64,000 nt of DNA from Candidatus Obscuribacter phosphatis. GTDB lineage: Bacteria > Cyanobacteriota > Vampirovibrionia > Obscuribacterales > Obscuribacteraceae. Location of the stretch: assembly GCA_001899315.1 (NCBI GenBank), contig MOYA01000001.1:745105-809104 (forward strand), read 5' to 3'. This document shows positions 26,246-35,966 of the stretch, piece after piece. A model generated the notes under the pieces. That model ran no database searches and had not been told where the DNA came from. It was given only the letters and a program-made list of their open reading frames with translations. Each line of letters begins with the position of its first letter. The first letter of the stretch is position 1. A program made the position numbers and the translations under genes.

Positions 26246-27499
26246 GTGTTGGCAAGAACCTCTTTACAATTGGCGACTTCGCTGGCCCTGACTTTGGGTA
26301 CGTTCAGTTTGCTCTCTCCGGTCTGGGCGCTCGATGCCGCTTTAACTGAAAAGCTCAATGACTATCAGCAGAAAATCGAAAGCCGCAGTCTTTCAGAAGC
26401 ACAATTGACTGAATTGGCCGGCCTCACCCAGAAGTTTCCCGGCGAGGCTAAAGTTCACCTCGTGTATGGTCTTGCCCTCGACCTAGTGGGTTTGAATGAT
26501 CAGGCTCTGGAACAGTTCCAGGCTGCCGATAAACTTGGACCGCAAGATTCAAATGCAGTTGTCGGTATCATTCACCACCTCGTCTCCAAAGGTGACAAGC
26601 AAGCGGCCCGAGCTTTGCTCGACCAAGCTTTGAAGCGCTTTCCGGAAGATGCAAATGTTCTCTTTATGCTGGGCAAGACTCTCAAGCAGGATAGAGATTT
26701 CGACTCAGCTGAAAAAACTTTATGGCGGGCGCATAACTTGCCCAACCGCCCCATCGGGCTAGCCACCGAACTGGCTGAGTTATATTCAGCTACCAATCCG
26801 GAATTGGCAGTAAATCTAGCTTCTGAAGACATCGAAAGGCAATCCAACTATGCTCCGGCTCTGGCTGTACTGGCAGAGGCCTTTTATAACCAGGGGCAGT
26901 ATCGCCGAGCTATCTATCCCTGCGAGATTTTGGTCAAGCAGTCCATCAGCTGGCGCAATATTTCGGACATTTATGCTCGCTGTCTCTTTTGGGATGGGCG
27001 CTACAAAGAAGCAGTTCTACCCATGTTGGTAACCCTGGCTAAGTCAGCCACCTACCTGGGGGGACGCATGCCTGGTGCCGAGATGATTGCGCAGACCGTA
27101 CCGCATATTTCAGGCAAGAAATTGAGTGCCATACTCGATAACTTTTATGCCAGCAATAGCAAAGAATTGGTGCGCAATCCCTTCCACTTTTATCTGGCTT
27201 CGGCCTTAGAAAAAGGCGGACGCTATGAGCTCGCATACAAAGAGATCAATACTTTTTTGTCAGCCGACCCTAAGAATGTGGACGCCCTTATATTTAAGGG
27301 CAAACTGCAAGAAACTTATCTCGGCGACTATGATGGAGCCTTGCAATCATACAAAACCGCCCATGCTCTTTTGCCCTACAACGGACCCTGCAATCAAGCT
27401 TTGATGCGCTTAGAGGACCGTCTGCGCGAAAGAGACGGCGATTTGGCCTGGAAGCTGCGGGATGGATTGCGAAGCTTCTTCCATCTTCCACCCATTTAA
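26246..27499 (+). CDS. exported TPR-repeat protein, 417 aa
   Basis: Signal peptide at about 1-28 (LARTSLQLATSLALTLGTFSLLSPVWA/LDA). The mature part has TPR-like units: VHLVYGLALDLVGLNDQALEQF, NVLFMLGKTLKQDRDFDSAEKT, LAEAFYNQGQYRRAIYP, AYKEINTFLSADPKNVDAL and LQETYLGDYDGALQSY. Probably a periplasmic scaffold. The start is GTG (an adjacent TTG is possible) after AAAGGTG. It ends 31 bp before the likely start of the phosphate-linked unknown gene and may be cotranscribed with it. Confidence 0.82.
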   Translation: MLARTSLQLATSLALTLGTFSLLSPVWALDAALTEKLNDYQQKIESRSLSEAQLTELAGLTQKFPGEAKVHLVYGLALDLVGLNDQALEQFQAADKLGPQDSNAVVGIIHHLVSKGDKQAARALLDQALKRFPEDANVLFMLGKTLKQDRDFDSAEKTLWRAHNLPNRPIGLATELAELYSATNPELAVNLASEDIERQSNYAPALAVLAEAFYNQGQYRRAIYPCEILVKQSISWRNISDIYARCLFWDGRYKEAVLPMLVTLAKSATYLGGRMPGAEMIAQTVPHISGKKLSAILDNFYASNSKELVRNPFHFYLASALEKGGRYELAYKEINTFLSADPKNVDALIFKGKLQETYLGDYDGALQSYKTAHALLPYNGPCNQALMRLEDRLRERDGDLAWKLRDGLRSFFHLPPI

Positions 27500-27530: not shown

Positions 27531-28514
27531 ATGTTCGAGTATTTGCCAGCTGCTAAATTAGTTGCAACCGACCACATAATGGTAGATGGCGCACCAAACT
27601 CTGCATCTGTCTTGACTCTATCTCATTGGCGCGGTAACAACACGCCGGCAGTGCTCAAGCATGACCTCTCTTGTGGTATCGCATTTAATGCTCTGCGAGC
27701 CATAAAAGAAGGCAGTTTGTCTGTTACTTGTCCTTATGTCACCAATAACCATTTTGATGAAGATGGCTTGGTCTCTCTATTTACCTTGACCAATAGTGAA
27801 GAAGCCATCGAATTGGAAGATAAACTGATGGATATTGCTTCGGCTGGGGACTTTGGGGTTTACAGCGATCGCGATATGGCGCGGGTTTCCTTTATGCTCA
27901 ATGCTTGGGCTTGCCCCGAGCTTTCCCCGCTTAGTGACGATGTCTTTGCCTTGCCTCGTCCAGAAATTGAAGCCATCTTGTATGAAGAATTGCTTTTGCG
28001 CCTGCCCAAGATCATCGCCAAAATAAGCTCATTCAGCCGCTTCTGGCAGGAAGAAGATGATTTTTTGAGCGAGACCGAGAAATGGTATGAAAAAGGGCTG
28101 ATTACTTTTGAAGAACGTCCCGAGCTCGACTTGCTCATAGTCAATATAGACGAGAAGGTACCGCAACGCGCCGATAAAGAACGAGCCTCCAGTTGGATCT
28201 CGTCGGTATTGCATCCTATGTTCATACACAATAAGAGCCGCATGATGAGAGTTGCCGTGCTAAAGGGCAGGCGGCGTGAAGTTTATTTTCGTTATGAGAC
28301 TTGGGTCGATTATCAAAGTCGTACTTTATTGCCTCGTCTTGATTTAAGTGCCCTGGCCAAGCAGTTTAACCGCCTAGACCGTAAAGGACGCTGGCAATTC
28401 AATTCTACCGACGATATAATAGCCCGGCTCTATATGCAGGAAAAAGACTCGGTACTTACCGAAGATGACTTTCTTAAGCTTTTAGTGGAGGCTCTCTCTA
28501 GTGAGCAATCATAA
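27531..28514 (+). CDS. unknown conserved protein (DUF6687-like?), coupled to DUF47-PiT
   Basis: About 327 residues, cytoplasmic. I think it resembles the DUF6687 group but am not sure. Conserved-looking parts: DHIMVDGAPNSASVLTLSHWRG (about 14-35), LKHDLSCGIAFNAL, and NNHFDEDGLVS (about 72-82). The last resembles motif I of DHH phosphoesterases (DxDGxxS), a hint rather than an assignment. The ATG at 27531 fits best; an earlier in-frame ATG at 27462 would overlap the TPR gene. Its end overlaps the DUF47 start by 14 bp, so the two are translationally coupled, linking it to phosphate import. Confidence 0.75.
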   Translation: MFEYLPAAKLVATDHIMVDGAPNSASVLTLSHWRGNNTPAVLKHDLSCGIAFNALRAIKEGSLSVTCPYVTNNHFDEDGLVSLFTLTNSEEAIELEDKLMDIASAGDFGVYSDRDMARVSFMLNAWACPELSPLSDDVFALPRPEIEAILYEELLLRLPKIIAKISSFSRFWQEEDDFLSETEKWYEKGLITFEERPELDLLIVNIDEKVPQRADKERASSWISSVLHPMFIHNKSRMMRVAVLKGRRREVYFRYETWVDYQSRTLLPRLDLSALAKQFNRLDRKGRWQFNSTDDIIARLYMQEKDSVLTEDDFLKLLVEALSSEQS

Positions 28515-29175
28515 GCGTAGTCTTCTTGCCCGTAGTCTTATGAAGATGCCCTTTGCCTCTTTCTTTGCTAAGGGTTTGTTTGAGCCTAGGGTAGATTTCT
28601 TCGCCTTGCTGGAAGCCCAAGCCGCCACCACGGTTAAGGGGATCGAAGCCTTAGAAGTTTGGCTCAGTGGTGGTGCTTATGATCGCTGCCAGCAGGTGCG
28701 CGACTTTGAGCATCAGGCCGATGAACAGAAGCTTGTTTTGCAAAAGAAGTTAGTCGAGTCTTTTGTCACGCCCCTAGATAGAGAAGATCTCTATGACCTC
28801 TCGGTTCGGCTTGATGAAGTGATAAATGCAGCCAAGAATGCTGCTCGCGAGGTGGAGGCTCTCAATTATTGCCCTCGTGATGAAACCTTACCCGAAATGG
28901 CTCGCACCCTAAAAGAAGGGGCGCGCTGTCTCTTCAACTCTTTTGCCAATCTCAAGAATAACCAAGAAGAAGCTGCTGCGCAGGCGGCTTTGGCCCGTAA
29001 GGCCGAGAATCGCTTTGAGAAGATTTATCGTCAGGGCATGCGAGATCTCTTTGAGACGAACGATTTCAAAACCATCTTGCGCACCGTCGAAGTCTATCGC
29101 ACCCTTGTCACTGCGGCGCAGCGCATCGACTCGGTGGCGGAGAAATTGCATCATGTCATAGTCAAGATGGGCTGA
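28501..29175 (+). CDS. DUF47 (PhoU-like) accessory protein of phosphate permease
   Basis: 224 residues, all-helical, matching the DUF47/PhoU_div family: FFALLEAQAATTVKGIEAL near 35, FEHQADEQK near 72 (the metal-binding E-x-x-A-D pattern), FVTPLDREDLYDLSVRLDEVINAAKNAA near 95. Such proteins accompany PiT permeases and are thought to control Pi flux. The GTG start lies inside the upstream gene, and the PiT gene begins 3 bp after its stop. Confidence 0.9.
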   Translation: MSNHKRSLLARSLMKMPFASFFAKGLFEPRVDFFALLEAQAATTVKGIEALEVWLSGGAYDRCQQVRDFEHQADEQKLVLQKKLVESFVTPLDREDLYDLSVRLDEVINAAKNAAREVEALNYCPRDETLPEMARTLKEGARCLFNSFANLKNNQEEAAAQAALARKAENRFEKIYRQGMRDLFETNDFKTILRTVEVYRTLVTAAQRIDSVAEKLHHVIVKMG

Positions 29176-29178
29176 AAT

Positions 29179-30186
29179 TTGGACCACAATACCATCATCA
29201 TCTTGATCGTTTTGTTTGGCTGTTTGTTCTCTTATACAAACGGCTTTCAAGACGGCAGTTCGGTGGCGGCATCTCCCATCGCCTCTCGCTCTATACCGCC
29301 TGCCTGGGCTGCTTTGCTCTCGGGGATATTCGAGTTTTTAGGTGCTCTCTTAGGCGGACAGGCTGTTGCTGGTTCGATAGTTGGTATCACCAGATATGGT
29401 GGAACTAAATTAGACGAGAGATTCTTGCCCATTCTTTTGACAGCTTTAGTGGCAGCCATTTCATGGAATTTTTTTACTCGCGCTATAAAAGTGCCAAGTT
29501 CATCGACGCACGCCCTGGTGGGTGGGTTGATTGGCGCTCTTTACGCCGCCAGCGGTAATTTTGATTATATTGTCGTGGGCGAATTGGGATATCTTTTGCA
29601 TCCCACCGGCGTCACTAAAGTGATTGTCACTCTTTTTCTCTCGCCTCTTATAGGCTTTCTTGCCGGCTTTATCTTGCTCAAGCTGGTTTATATCTTTGGT
29701 GTTTTCTTCACTGCCTCGCTCACTCGTCTATTCAAGCGCTTACAGTGGCTGGCATTGCCGCTTTTGGCTTTCGGCCACGGCGCCAACGACTCGCAAAAGG
29801 TAATGGGTTTAATCGCTTTCAGTTTGCTTGGCAATATTTCCACTATTCCCATTGAAATTAGACTCTTGATAGCTATAGCTCTAACTACTGGAGTTTTGGC
29901 CATGGCACCCGGTATTGTCAAAAGGGTGGGTACCGGCATTTATCGCTTGCGACCGACACCGGCTTTTGTCGCTCAGCTGGCCTCGGCGGTGGTGGTCACA
30001 ATGGGCTCACTCACCGGCGGACCTCTTTCCGCTTCTCAGGTGATTGCCTCAACAGTTATGGGGGTTGGTTGTGCTGAAAGAAGAAAAGGCGTGCACTGGC
30101 TTGTGGCGCGAGACATGCTAATGGCTTGGGTTTTGACCATACCATCTTCTGCCTTTCTGGCATACTGGCTCTATCGCTTATTTTGA
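29179..30186 (+). CDS. pit: PiT-family inorganic phosphate permease
   Basis: 335 residues with about ten hydrophobic segments. Both PiT signature repeats are present: the N-terminal TNGFQDGSSVAA (about 14-25) and the C-terminal half GHGANDSQKVMGLIA (about 198-212). The first repeat has NGFQDGS where many family members read NGANDxA, which may affect substrate or ion preference. Moves phosphate with H+ or Na+ across the inner membrane. Start TTG, 3 bp after the DUF47 stop. The last 15 bp and the stop codon are duplicated in tandem just downstream. Confidence 0.92.
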   Translation: MDHNTIIILIVLFGCLFSYTNGFQDGSSVAASPIASRSIPPAWAALLSGIFEFLGALLGGQAVAGSIVGITRYGGTKLDERFLPILLTALVAAISWNFFTRAIKVPSSSTHALVGGLIGALYAASGNFDYIVVGELGYLLHPTGVTKVIVTLFLSPLIGFLAGFILLKLVYIFGVFFTASLTRLFKRLQWLALPLLAFGHGANDSQKVMGLIAFSLLGNISTIPIEIRLLIAIALTTGVLAMAPGIVKRVGTGIYRLRPTPAFVAQLASAVVVTMGSLTGGPLSASQVIASTVMGVGCAERRKGVHWLVARDMLMAWVLTIPSSAFLAYWLYRLF

Positions 30187-30463: not shown

Positions 30464-30853
30464 ATGTTTGAGGGTGATATGACTTCCGATATTAATTCTT
30501 CCAATTCAGAGCAGATAAATGAGAGTGCTGAATTTGACAGACATTGGTTGCGCAGCGAAACAAGCGCCGAACCGGTTTATCAAGACATAAAACAGATTAG
30601 GGACTATGCCAGATTGGCTTTTGACCGTCTTGATTTAGACAAGAACGGCTTTATCGAGCGCAGCGAACTTTTTACCTTTTTGCAGAGCGATAAAGTATCC
30701 AGCCGCGAGAAGTCTTTCATCACCTTTTTGCTCAATAATCAAGAAGCAATTGCCGAAATGGTCTCGGAAGAGAAATCTGGACCAGAAAGCGGCATATCAA
30801 GAGATGATTTGGAAAGCTATTTTGCTCTGGTCATCAATTTAATAGGCGCTTAG
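30464..30853 (+). CDS. EF-hand domain protein, 129 aa
   Basis: Acidic, soluble protein with one canonical EF-hand loop DLDKNGFIERSE at 57-68: Asp1, Asp3, Asn5, Gly6, Ile8 and Glu12 are all in place, so Ca2+ binding is likely. A second, degenerate loop may lie near EKSGPESGISRDDLE (about 103-117). No signal peptide. An AAAGGA ribosome site precedes ATG; ATG at 30479 is an alternative. Role unknown; possibly a calcium sensor. Confidence 0.75.
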   Translation: MFEGDMTSDINSSNSEQINESAEFDRHWLRSETSAEPVYQDIKQIRDYARLAFDRLDLDKNGFIERSELFTFLQSDKVSSREKSFITFLLNNQEAIAEMVSEEKSGPESGISRDDLESYFALVINLIGA

Positions 30854-30919: not shown

Positions 30920-33325
30920 ATGAAAGTCAAGGCAAGGCTTGCGGCTACATTGGCCCTGGTCTCGGTTCTAATGTCGGGCGCGACTGCTCAGGCACAACTT
31001 GGTGGTATCGACCTATCTCAAATTCCAGCTCTATTGGATGTCGAGGGTAGAAGAACCCAGCTGGAGAAAGCAGTTAATGATGCTGTGTTGGCTGGTCGTC
31101 TTTCTTCTGCCGACGCCGACAGTTTCAAGAAAGAATTGAATCGCATCAAGGATCTTGAGCTCGGTTATAAAGCTTCCGGTAAGTTTTCAATTTGGCAGAA
31201 GACCAGGCTCGGCTTAGAGTTGGATGTGATTTCTTCCAACCTTGAAAAATCTCTGGGCGAAAGAAAAGAAATCGGACTCACCGATATTGCCGGAAAACAG
31301 GCCGATCTTACTGCTCGGCTCAATGCGGCCCAGACAGCCGGCAGACTAAGCACCTTTGAAGTAAACGCGCTGCTTGCAGATCTGAATGCTTTAAAAACCA
31401 AAGAGTCTACATTTAAGGCTGCTTCTGGCGGGGCTTTATCTAACGCCCAGACTCTTGAATTGGCTCTTGATCTAGATAAGCTATCTAGTAAGTTAGAGTC
31501 GCAGCTGAAAGCCAGGAGCGGAGCCGATGTTGATTATGCCGCTCGCCGCACTGAGTTGCGTACTCGTCTGAAAGACTTGGTCACCACTGGGCGTATGAGC
31601 CAAAGCGAAGCCGATACTTATACCCAAGAATTGAATCGTATTGAAAGTCGCGAGACATCTCTCAAGGCTACCGGTGCGCCGCTTACCGTGGCCGATCAGT
31701 TGTCTTTGGCTCTTGATCTAGAGCGGGTCAATTCCGCCCTTGAGCGTTATACCGGTGCCACTGCCACTGGTATGCCCGGCATCGATGCCATGCAACAGGC
31801 TATTGAAAAGAAAATTGCAGACAATCAAGCTGCCGGTAAGTTCGCCCTCAATCAATATGCCGAGCTCAAGCAAGAGTTCGACCGTATCAATCAAGTGGAG
31901 AGCAATTATCGAGCAGACGGCTCTCTTTCAGACAGTGAAACACTAACCCTTTCCAATCAGTTGGAAGCGCTCGATAAGCGCATCGATACAGTTCTAAGCA
32001 GTAATGCTCCCACTCCCGGCGGCGGACTTTCAGCCAAGCAGAGTGAGCTGGTCAAAAAACTAGACTCGGCTAAAGCAGCTCAGCGTTTGACTGATGCCCA
32101 ATATCAAGACTTCAAAAACAAGCTTGATCAAAATAGCGCTAGAGAAAGACTTTTCCGCGCCGACGGCGTCTTGAGTGATTACGAAACACTTTCATTGGCT
32201 AATGAGCTGGACACACTTTCAGCTCAGATTACATCATCGCTGACGGCTCTGCCCGATCTTAGCACCACCCGCAGTGCGCTGGAGAAGAAGCTGCAAGATG
32301 GTTTGGCAAGCGGTCGCCTCAGCCCCTCTGCCGAGCCTGATGTGCGTGCCGATCTCAGCCGCGTTTCGCAGTTGGAGTCTGCATTCAAAAGTGGTTCTGG
32401 TAATTTAGCCTTAAATGATGAACAGATTGCCCATTTGTCTAGAGAGTATGCCGCCATTGGCGCCAGACTGGACAAGTCGATGGCTGCTCTGCCTGATGTC
32501 GCGGCCAAGAAAACCGAAGTGACTAAGCAGATTACCGAAGGCGAGGCCTCTGGTGTCTTGACTGCCGCCCAGGTGCAGGATATGCGCAAGGAACTCGATC
32601 GCATCGCCACTGTGGAAGCTAGTTTCCGTGCTTCGGATAATGCCTTTACCGATTGGGAAGTGATGACCGTCAATAGAGATCTCGATAGACTCAATAACGA
32701 CATTGTTAGATTGAAGGCCGCCCATCCGGTGGCGCCGGTTCAGACTGCCAATGCGCCTTTCGATACAAAGGGACATTGGGCCGAGTCCTATGTCGGGCAG
32801 CTAACACAGCGCTCGATTATCGGTGGTTTCCCAGATGGTTCATTCAAGCCGGATGATGGTATCACCCGTGCACAGTTTGCCGCCATTGCCATGAAGGCTC
32901 TCAATGTGCCGCCGGCTGCCGGTGCCGCTCAGTTCAAAGATGTCTCGCCTACCTATTGGGCTTCCAAAGCGATTGCGGCGGTAAGCCAGGCTGGTTTGGT
33001 GACCGGATTCCCTGACGGTACATTCAAGCCCGAAGATAAGATTACAAGAGCCCAAGCTCTGGTGATTTTAGCCAAGGCTCTACCTTCCGGTCTCGCCGAT
33101 GTCTCTATTTTGAATAGCTATCAAGATGGTTCTTCGGTGCCTTCTTGGGCTGCTCCTTCTGTGGCTAAAGCTGCAAAAGCAAGAATCATAGTGAGCTATC
33201 CAGACCCGAGCCAGATTAGGCCCAATCTCAACGCCTCTAGAGCTGACGTGGCCGCGCTCACCTATCAAACCTTGGTCAATTTAGGTCAGAAACTACCCGT
33301 GATCAAAGTTGGTTTAGAGAAATAG
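30920..33325 (+). CDS. SLH-domain surface protein with seven tandem helical repeats
   Basis: 801 residues. Signal peptide at 1-26 (ending ATAQAQ). Residues about 40-605 are seven diverged copies of a 75-82-residue unit, pattern L..L..A..AGRLS..EA..F..EL.RI...E..A.G.LS..E.L.L..LD.L...L. Three S-layer homology domains follow at about 614-657 (HWAESYVGQLTQRSIIGGFPD), 672-715 (WASKAIAAVSQAGLVTGFPD) and 732-787. SLH domains bind pyruvylated or other secondary wall polymer on peptidoglycan, so this protein probably anchors a helical rod to the wall. A strong GAGGAG site precedes ATG, and a strong terminator follows; it is probably well expressed and monocistronic. Confidence 0.9.
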   Translation: MKVKARLAATLALVSVLMSGATAQAQLGGIDLSQIPALLDVEGRRTQLEKAVNDAVLAGRLSSADADSFKKELNRIKDLELGYKASGKFSIWQKTRLGLELDVISSNLEKSLGERKEIGLTDIAGKQADLTARLNAAQTAGRLSTFEVNALLADLNALKTKESTFKAASGGALSNAQTLELALDLDKLSSKLESQLKARSGADVDYAARRTELRTRLKDLVTTGRMSQSEADTYTQELNRIESRETSLKATGAPLTVADQLSLALDLERVNSALERYTGATATGMPGIDAMQQAIEKKIADNQAAGKFALNQYAELKQEFDRINQVESNYRADGSLSDSETLTLSNQLEALDKRIDTVLSSNAPTPGGGLSAKQSELVKKLDSAKAAQRLTDAQYQDFKNKLDQNSARERLFRADGVLSDYETLSLANELDTLSAQITSSLTALPDLSTTRSALEKKLQDGLASGRLSPSAEPDVRADLSRVSQLESAFKSGSGNLALNDEQIAHLSREYAAIGARLDKSMAALPDVAAKKTEVTKQITEGEASGVLTAAQVQDMRKELDRIATVEASFRASDNAFTDWEVMTVNRDLDRLNNDIVRLKAAHPVAPVQTANAPFDTKGHWAESYVGQLTQRSIIGGFPDGSFKPDDGITRAQFAAIAMKALNVPPAAGAAQFKDVSPTYWASKAIAAVSQAGLVTGFPDGTFKPEDKITRAQALVILAKALPSGLADVSILNSYQDGSSVPSWAAPSVAKAAKARIIVSYPDPSQIRPNLNASRADVAALTYQTLVNLGQKLPVIKVGLEK

Positions 33326-33881: not shown

Positions 33882-35966
33882 TTATTTGACCAAGAAAGCA
33901 ACCAAAAGAAGGGCAACGATGTTCAAGATTTTGATCATCGGGTTGATAGCCGGACCAGCGGTATCTTTGTAGGGGTCGCCTACAGTATCGCCGGTGACGG
34001 CAGCTTTGTGAGCTTCTGAGCCCTTGCCGCCGTGGTGACCTTCTTCGATATATTTCTTGGCGTTATCCCAGGCTCCGCCGCCGGAGGTCATAGAGATAGC
34101 CACGAATAGACCGGTGATTATTGAACCTACCAGTACGCCGCCCAGAATCTTGGCTGCTGCATATTCGCCGGGCAGAGCATTGTTCAGCCAGAAGGCGCCG
34201 AGCATGGCGATAACGACCGGGGTGCCGACTGGGAAGAGAGCCGGTACAACCATTTTCTTGAGGGCTGCCGAGGTAACGATGTCTACGCACTTAGCATAGT
34301 CAGGTTTGGCTGTGCCTTCCATGATGCCGGGGATTTCTCTGAATTGGCGTCTCACTTCTTCGACGACCATACCGCCGGCGGCACCTACCGATTCCATAGC
34401 CAGAGCTGCGAAAACGAAAGGAATGAGACCGCCGATGAAGAGACCAGCCAGCACATAGGGGCTGGAGAGATCGAAGGTGATATGACCTTGGGCACCGGCT
34501 TTGGCCATGGCTAGGTTCAGTTCTTCGGTATAAGAGCTGAAGAGCACGATGGCGGCAAGTCCGGCAGAACCGATGGCATAGCCTTTGGTCACAGCCTTGG
34601 TGGTGTTGCCTACGGCATCGAGGGGGTCGGTGACATTTCTTACTTCTTTGGGCAATTCAGACATTTCGGCAATACCGCCGGCGTTGTCTGTAATTGGTCC
34701 ATATGAGTCGATAGCGACGATGATGCCGGCCATCGAGAGCATAGACATGGCTGCCAGAGCCACACCGAATACTCCGCAGAGTGAATAAGAAATGAGGATA
34801 CCGGCGACAATGACGATAACAGGGTAGGCTGTGGACTTCATCGATACGGCTAGTCCGGCGATGATGTTGGTGGCGTGACCTGTTTCGGATGCTTTGGCGA
34901 TGTACTTCACCGGTGCATAGTCAGTTGAGGTGTAATACTCGGTGATGAAAACCAGAAGCCCGGTGACAACCAGGCCGACCATGGCAGCCAGGAAGAAAGC
35001 CATCGTGGTGACAGGTTTATCGCCGATGGTCAGACCTTGCATCATCTTGTCGGTGATTACCCAGAAGGAAACGCCGGCAAGAACACCGGCGACGATCAGA
35101 CCCTTATAGAGAGCGCCCATGATATTGGTGCTCTTACCGAGCTTGACGCAAAGAGCGCCTATCACAGAAGTGACAATCGAGGCGGCACCCAATACCAGAG
35201 GATAAACAATGACATTAGGGGCGGTGCCGGCTTCTATCTGGGCGTGAAAGATTTGATGAGCGAGCAGCATTGTCGCTACGGCGGTTACGGCATAAGTTTC
35301 GAAAAGGTCGGCTGCCATACCGGCGCAGTCGCCGACATTGTCGCCGACGTTATCGGCAATTACAGCGGGGTTTCTTGGATCATCTTCAGGAATACCGGCT
35401 TCCACTTTACCGACCAAGTCGGCGCCGACGTCGGCTGCTTTGGTGTAGATGCCGCCACCCAGTCTGGCGAATACTGAAATCAAGCTGGCTCCGAAGCCGA
35501 GACCAACTAGAGCATTCACGTCTTTGGTGACCATGTAAAATCCAGCCACGCCCAAAAGACCGAGACCGACAACCAGAAGACCGGTTACCGAGCCGCCTTT
35601 GAAGGCTACCGAAAGAGCTGCTTCCAGCCCGTTTTTGGCGGCTTCAGCGGTGCGCACGTTGGCTCGTACCGAGACATACATGCCGACAAAGCCGGAAAGA
35701 GCGGAAAGAACGGCACCGACCAGGAAGCCTGCCGCGGTGGTCCAGTTCAGAGTGAGACCGATGATGAGGAAAAGCACAGCACCGACACCAGCTATGGTGG
35801 TGTACTGTCTGTTCATATAAGCACTGGCGCCTTCCTGAATGGCCGATGCAATTTGTTGCATGCGCTCATTCCCGGCGCTTAAGTTGAGAACGCTGGTGCC
35901 AGCCCAGCCGCCATATGCGAGTGCGACTGCACCGCAGCCCAGCACACCCATCAGAGTCGTGTCCAT
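33882..35966 (-). CDS. hppA: membrane-bound H+-translocating pyrophosphatase, K+-independent type
   Basis: 694 residues, about 16 membrane segments. Pumps protons across the membrane using pyrophosphate hydrolysis. The substrate site is intact: [19 protein letters not shown] near 170-188 and [18 protein letters not shown] near 205-222. The subtype motif reads GNTTKA (about 460), with Lys where K+-dependent enzymes have Ala, placing it in the K+-independent class. A GGGAG site lies six bases before ATG. It has its own terminator. Pyrophosphate-driven energy use fits the phosphate genes 4 kb away, but no direct link is shown. Confidence 0.96.

Follow-up and report, generated by a model that had tools for sequence, protein, structure and literature searches.

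What is the role of a gene that overlaps the start of a phosphate transport locus and whose product belongs to a family with no assigned function? This question is raised by a stretch of 64,000 nucleotides (referred to below as the window) on contig MOYA01000001.1 of Candidatus Obscuribacter phosphatis, in which a gene encoding a 327-residue protein overlaps by 14 bp a gene for a PhoU-like DUF47 protein, with a gene for a PiT-type inorganic phosphate transporter beginning 3 bp past the DUF47 stop. An earlier sequence-only reading of the window had described this layout, and its coordinates are confirmed by the open reading frames and the sequence. We find that the 327-residue protein is a member of Pfam family PF20392, DUF6687 (E-value 3.8e-65, 220.7 bits against a cut-off of 27), although no function has been assigned to this family; an NCBIfam search with the protein assigned no family, and no mention of the name DUF6687 was found in the open-access literature searched. 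The interpretation that we favour, with a probability of roughly 0.6, is that DUF6687 is a divergent two-metal phosphohydrolase of the DHH-DHHA1 type, in which the motifs follow the order II-III-I-IV, and that it is made together with DUF47 and PiT and likely frees phosphate.

Predicted fold and motif order of the DUF6687 protein

The full-length AlphaFold2 model of the protein, built on an alignment of 20 sequences, has a predicted local distance difference test score (pLDDT) of 93.4 and a predicted template modelling score of 0.91. When this model was compared with the PDB using Foldseek, all of ranks 1-14 were occupied by chains of the DHH superfamily, and an unrelated chain appeared first at rank 15 with an E-value of 0.59. 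The fourteen include Rv2837c (5cet, 3.3e-4), yeast PPX1, NrnA, NrN, the DHH domain of PF0399, Staphylococcus aureus NrnA/Pde2, the Streptococcus mutans pyrophosphatase (1i74) and one replisome chain, which we take to be Cdc45. Named best matches among viral predicted structures (phage and giant virus) include exopolyphosphatases and DHH hydrolases. Using VIA-align, Z values of 9.4 and 9.1 were obtained with PggH (236 residues, 5.9 Å) and PF0399 (248 residues, 7.7 Å) respectively, while C-terminal residues 176-327 aligned with the DHHA1 domains of NrN, Rv2837c, DhhP and TmPDE at a moderate Z of 7-8 (106-119 residues, 3.1-3.9 Å), which points to a DHHA1-type fold for this domain. The GGGH or GGH sequence of DHHA1 is absent, and the FGGGGH position is occupied by xLNxxExxGxW in the alignment consensus, in a register that was set by eye and is backed by a block score ranking 1/317 at residue 271. 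The conserved R-Y-E-x-W and other arginines found in place of GGGH suggest that the ligand is anionic, though not bound in the way that NrnA binds nucleotides.

In canonical DHH proteins motifs I (strand 1), II (strand 3), III, which is the DHH tripeptide (strand 4), and IV occur in sequence; the ligands are H20, D24, D26 / D80 / H103, H104 / D156 in BsNrnA (PMC5593865) and D79, D81, D83 / D135 / D158-H159-H160 / D223 in DrRecJ (PMC4846377). We propose that in DUF6687 motif II (D19) and motif III (H32) precede motif I (H74, D76, D78), which is followed by motif IV (D107), giving the non-canonical order II-III-I-IV. The H74-x-D76-x-D78 segment has the D-x-D and preceding ligand that are expected of motif I in the superfamily. 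Consistent with a reordering, VIA alignments of the full-length model begin downstream of motif I in the target, for example from residue 38 of BsNrnA (5j21), in which D24 and D26 lie upstream. Residues 1-64 were deleted, residues 65-327 were predicted alone (pLDDT 90.3) and the structural comparison was repeated, the count being limited to the 11 entries that were aligned from the model N-terminus in both listings and leaving out rows that align only the DHHA1 part, which are silent on order. In all 11 of these entries the alignment start moved upstream, by 23-30 residues (7d62 from 27 to 3, 5yh1 from 379 to 355, 8a8k from 23 to -1, 7bjq from 65 to 36, 7yik and 7ykv from 53 to 24, 7bhi from 65 to 35, 6tvv from 52 to 23, 8q6o from 40 to 17, 8xgc from 49 to 25 and 8b9a from 48 to 25), which argues that the NNHFDEDG strand-helix occupies the place of canonical strand 1. 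In a Foldseek search with this fragment DHH chains still came first, with weaker E-values (best 0.015).

Motif order was also assessed by scoring blocks of an NrnA-type profile (20 proteins, one of which is shown to be akin to BsNrnA, TmPDE and Rv2837c) against a profile of 42 DUF6687 sequences. Both the NrnA and the RecJ block for motif I rank first at the NNHFDEDGLVS segment (ranks for motifs I-IV are given in Table 1); the NrnA DHHA1 blocks rank 3/318 and 1/317, and the post-DHH block ranks 15/313 where it was expected, with rank 1 falling one residue away. The expected places were picked by eye before scoring, so that single-block ranks are optimistic, and for this reason a chaining test over all orders was run. 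With free placement of blocks in 120 orders, II-III-b-I-IV scored 41.03 (second) and the canonical order 33.0 (rank 50/120). For comparison, the proposed order reached 20.1 +/- 3.3 (maximum 28.7) in 100 column shuffles, the best of the 120 orders across 40 shuffles scored at most 34.1, and the same NrnA blocks scored 35.1 in canonical order on RecJ, a genuine DHH protein (rank 5 there). When residues 63-88 or similar segments were placed first in the chain, motifs I, II and III came into register by eye, with a score against NrnA that was no better than that of the native order (16.5). Among single segments compared by hhalign, 64-95 did best, with a probability of 15.8% against RecJ (E 0.0016 for a single template).

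It is improbable, in our judgement, that homology is limited to the C-terminal DHHA1-like domain, the N-domain having an unrelated fold with a convergent likeness to motif I. Such a view would account for the many VIA rows that cover residues 175-327 only, for the AlaRS C-Ala domains among the matches and for the small number of strands in the modelled N-domain. DSSP recognises three strands of at least three residues in that domain (at 15-18, 26-30 and 69-72); the canonical DHH domain has a five-stranded parallel sheet of order 21345 (PMC4846377). Against the C-terminal-only view, the alignments of the 11 entries above extend through the N-domain in either comparison and shift as predicted, and the top block rank falls at motif I for each of two independent DHH profiles and at motif III for NrnA. 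A DUF6687 protein from another lineage (L115, genome G099) keeps the N-domain, and its C-terminal domain is either a different one or strongly diverged, which suggests that the catalytic domain with reordered motifs forms a module of its own.

The proposed metal site and its departures from DHH enzymes

Conservation was counted over the 42 DUF6687 sequences, which come from several bacterial groups. D19, L30, H32, P39, D76, D78, R269 and W288 are invariant, and S31, W33, N73, H74, G79, G106, D107, F108, R254, E256 and W258 are conserved in 41/42; the proposed metal-ligand positions are therefore retained in 41-42 of the sequences, including members with no PiT nearby. Since D76 and D78 occur in 42/42 and H74 and G79 in 41/42, and the NrnA and RecJ blocks both score highest there, NNHFDEDGLVS is no chance string, and the resemblance to motif I that had been noticed from the letters alone holds up. 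In the mechanism that we envisage, two divalent metals, probably Mn2+, would be coordinated by D19, H32, H74, D76, D78 and D107 and would activate water for the cleavage of a phosphate ester or anhydride, with the substrate presumably sitting between the catalytic domain and the arginine-rich DHHA1 domain.

Comparison with characterised proteins reveals both likenesses and differences. The yeast exopolyphosphatase PPX1 and the family II pyrophosphatase 1i74 belong to the same superfamily and fall within Foldseek ranks 1-14. In contrast to DUF6687, PPX1 and family II pyrophosphatase carry a DHHA2 domain, and VIA aligns only the C-terminal part of PPX1. NrnA, DhhP and Rv2837c share with DUF6687 the two-domain plan, the DHHA1-like domain and the H..D-x-D of motif I, and the single ligands of DUF6687 would be equivalent to D80, H103 and D156 of the NrnA type (PMC5593865). 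DUF6687 differs from this type in motif order, in having SHW in place of DHH, in lacking GGGH and in having fewer strands in the catalytic domain, and there is no significant sequence similarity. Bacterial and archaeal RecJ proteins resemble DUF6687 in the ligand spacing of motif I, D79-x-D81-x-D83 of DrRecJ (PMC4846377) corresponding to H74-x-D76-x-D78, and in the DxDG(L/I) pattern; motif order and size differ, and DUF6687 lacks nuclease accessory domains. No account of a permuted DHH family was among the records listed by searches of open-access literature.

Several observations weigh against the interpretation of DUF6687 as a reordered phosphohydrolase. The TM-scores from Foldseek are low, at 0.14-0.30 for ranks 1-14, and VIA Z values mostly fall at 5-8, a range that unrelated models reach too (Z below 8); what counts in the fold evidence is therefore that the matches are so uniform in identity. 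The Pfam DHH and DHHA1 models do not match the protein, PDB sequence searches with it gave no credible relative, and hhalign comparisons of DUF6687 (34 sequences) with the NrnA (20) and RecJ profiles yielded nothing significant in native order and likewise in permuted order. The RecJ blocks agree with motif I but are weak for motifs II, III and IV. The order III-b-I-II-IV, with motif II at D107, scored 41.23 and is tied with the proposed order; we assign motif II to D19 rather than D107 because D19 ends a strand and D107 ends a helix. As the chained solution places block IV at residue 157 and not at D107, with the first DHHA1 block (R) at residue 223 instead of R254, sequence alone is no proof that D107 is motif IV. 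Moreover, of the DHH tripeptide S-H-W retains the metal-binding His alone; the Asp and the second His, which PyapApase and DrRecJ both need, are absent from DUF6687 (for DrRecJ, PMC4846377). Finally, one Obscuribacterales protein (genome G005; L038 / L101) has H74 replaced by V, D107 by T and W33 by E, and deviates at G79, yet its gene still adjoins DUF47-PiT.

These last points could also be explained if DUF6687 were a non-catalytic sensor that used its DHH-like fold to bind phosphate or a phosphorylated ligand and signalled to DUF47/PiT with no hydrolysis, and being encoded together with a PhoU-like protein would suit such a role. We consider this unlikely, however, as the other proposed ligand positions are kept in 41-42 of the 42 sequences across several bacterial groups, also where no PiT is near, a pattern that fits catalysis better, and every sequence retains H32, which is the His of motif III that binds metal. 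The degraded site of the G005 protein, coupled as its gene is to DUF47-PiT, provides a natural test of the need for catalysis.

On balance, the fold and site of DUF6687 are well supported by prediction, and with moderate confidence we consider it likely that the protein works like a DHH phosphoesterase. The likeness to DHH phosphoesterases put forward in the sequence-only reading thus stands in its structural part, borne out by the structure matches, the fragment shift and the block tests, and has to be modified in that the protein is non-canonical, with reordered motifs, SHW and no GGGH. Canonical DHH membership was rejected: because neither the DHH tripeptide nor the motif order was found, DUF6687 is best described as a variant, and not a member, of the DHH family. 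If this is correct, a DUF with members in several bacterial groups would gain a function class, and a large superfamily would be seen to keep its two-metal site through a motif reordering that conceals such a family from standard sequence searches.

Linkage with DUF47 and PiT

Fifty genomes of the family (Obscuribacterales) were searched for the three genes. PiT is present in all 50, DUF47 in 44 and DUF6687 in 26, and in 25 of these 26 the three genes share a strand and are arranged as DUF6687, DUF47 and PiT, the lone exception being G003, where DUF6687 is on a different contig from DUF47-PiT. The DUF6687-DUF47 boundary is an overlap or lies within a few bases in most loci. G754 has a gap of about 1 kb, and in G014 and G031 an HD-domain gene sits between DUF6687 and DUF47, G031 having in addition a reverse gene before PiT. 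The inserted HD-domain protein is possibly a second phosphohydrolase in the operon; as a fourth part of the module it was dropped, being found in genus g13 only among the loci looked at. Both structural similarity to DHH proteins and conserved linkage to DUF47/PiT, on whose absence the sequence-only reading was to be given up, were thus found.

Among the 24 genomes of the family without DUF6687, 18 have a DUF47 match, and in 14 of these DUF47 adjoins PiT, so the DUF47-PiT pair appears to be the basic unit and DUF6687 an addition. DUF6687 proteins from this family group in a single clade (17 tips, support 0.96) that also contains the unlinked G003 member; the linkage was therefore most simply gained once and lost once, and DUF6687 was likely recruited a single time to the DUF47-PiT operon in the family. 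The same facts, a linkage that may have arisen only once and a pair that exists without DUF6687, also speak for DUF6687 being a nucleotide-type phosphodiesterase or nucleotidase unconnected to phosphate uptake, its association with DUF47-PiT reflecting one lineage's inherited operon arrangement. This explanation also draws on a different setting of DUF6687, common to most of the loci in Gammaproteobacteria (L004-L016, L019), where a gene for a MobA-like nucleotidyltransferase lies downstream (11/18 of the loci outside the family) and two small unannotated proteins are encoded upstream (12/18 and 9/18), with DUF2784 in 6 and a CMD-domain gene in 7; these neighbours provide a lead to the substrate. 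We regard it as somewhat doubtful, since the trio is held together in four stretches from two genera in which the surrounding synteny is gone (L106, L107, L111 and L112) and since the overlap or close spacing of DUF6687 and DUF47 is so common.

Outside the family DUF6687 is patchy, being detected in 3/386 genomes sampled from the phylum of the window genome, in 6/296 from the phylum of G448 and in 0/14 control genomes. PiT is present in 7 of the 18 DUF6687 genomes outside the family, and phmmer searches of the fetched flanks of the 18 corresponding loci (L004-L021) revealed no relative of DUF47 or PiT, though a very divergent PiT could escape and some flanks are short. A universal phosphate module is therefore rejected, and the conserved linkage to DUF47/PiT that the sequence-only reading anticipated is upheld for one family and not beyond it. 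The different neighbours elsewhere also indicate that phosphate import is not what DUF6687 serves in general, which is a further point against our interpretation.

Within Obscuribacterales, the phosphohydrolase that we favour would be produced in concert with PiT and the PhoU-like DUF47 protein, and would most likely release phosphate from some phosphorylated compound of the cytosol (short polyphosphate, pyrophosphate or a nucleotide), with control shared with PiT. A partial parallel is PitR-Pit of Staphylococcus aureus, in which a PhoU-like accessory regulator works with its cognate phosphate transporter (PMC13170248). The main text of that report, in contrast to the arrangement described here, names no DHH-like enzyme and mentions no phosphoesterase, and DUF47 is not used there as a name for PitR (PMC13170248). 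Some Obscuribacterales carry polyphosphate genes, and PiT and polyphosphate-metabolism genes have been reported in the EBPR_351 genome of Candidatus Obscuribacter phosphatis (PMC4040986). More tentatively, DUF6687 may represent an undescribed class of two-metal phosphohydrolase, in which the strand-helix of DHH motif I has moved between motifs III and IV, and which in Obscuribacterales has joined the DUF47-PiT operon and sets the cytosolic phosphate pool that the pair senses or moves. If so, an enzyme would be added to the DUF47-PiT pair, and transport-coupled phosphate release would be testable in a group with reported polyphosphate genes.

Features of the locus and its surroundings

Coordinates are collected in Table 1. 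A 350-residue reading of the DUF6687 gene from position 27462 was dropped, as it would overlap the upstream TPR gene and the closest relative of the DUF6687 protein in GTDB contigs (92% identity; L002, 5903-6886) has exactly 327 codons. Counts in a promoter and terminator scan of the locus were not above those of shuffles beyond their spread.

Table 1. Positions of genes, motifs and domains discussed in the text, numbered along the window unless a locus is named.
Feature	Position	Strand	Details
DUF6687 gene	27531..28514	+	327 aa, ATG at 27531; predicted motif-reordered DHH-DHHA1 phosphoesterase, from Pfam, model, fold searches and fragment test
Proposed motif II metal ligand, D19	27585..27587	+	End of strand 15-18; conserved 42/42; NrnA block rank 3/317, RecJ 28/317
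Proposed motif III, S31-H32-W33, replacing DHH	27621..27629	+	End of strand 26-30; H32 42/42; NrnA block rank 1/316, RecJ 23/316
Proposed motif I, NNHFDEDGLVS (H74, D76, D78)	27744..27776	+	Residues 72-82, after strand 69-72; NrnA and RecJ blocks both rank 1/308
Proposed motif IV, D107 (AGDF)	27849..27851	+	End of helix 96-108; 41/42; NrnA block rank 3/313, RecJ 15/313
DHHA1-like C-terminal domain	28056..28511	+	Residues 176-327; without GGGH; conserved R254-Y-E-x-W258, R269, W288; from VIA and conservation
GGAGG, resembling a ribosome-binding site, for DUF47	28487..28491	+	Inside DUF6687 gene, 9 nt before DUF47 start; read from sequence
DUF47 / PhoU_div gene	28501..29175	+	224 aa, GTG start; PF01865 2.7e-17, 63.3 bits against cut-off 24.4
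PiT-type inorganic phosphate transporter gene	29179..30186	+	335 aa, TTG start; PF01384 PHO4 1.9e-65, 221.6 bits against cut-off 33.7
TPR-repeat protein gene	26246..27499	+	417 aa, ends 31 bp before DUF6687 start; Pfam TPR
EF-hand protein gene	30464..30853	+	Just downstream of the trio
S-layer-homology protein gene	30920..33325	+	801 aa, long repeats; just downstream of the trio
Membrane-bound H+-pyrophosphatase gene	33882..35966	-	PF03030 1.2e-266; ~3.7 kb downstream of the trio
HD-domain gene between DUF6687 and DUF47	L106:4121-4816; L111:5749-6435		Genus g13

The pyrophosphate-driven pump that had been attributed to this lineage is indeed encoded in the window, and by itself says nothing on the substrate of DUF6687. 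A relative of the pump gene is found in the same neighbourhood in several members of the family (L002, L102, L104 and L109). A relative of the TPR gene lies directly upstream of DUF6687 in 12 of the 16 relatives' stretches examined (L002, L099-L105, L108-L110 and L113), and these include that of G003, where DUF47-PiT is unlinked.

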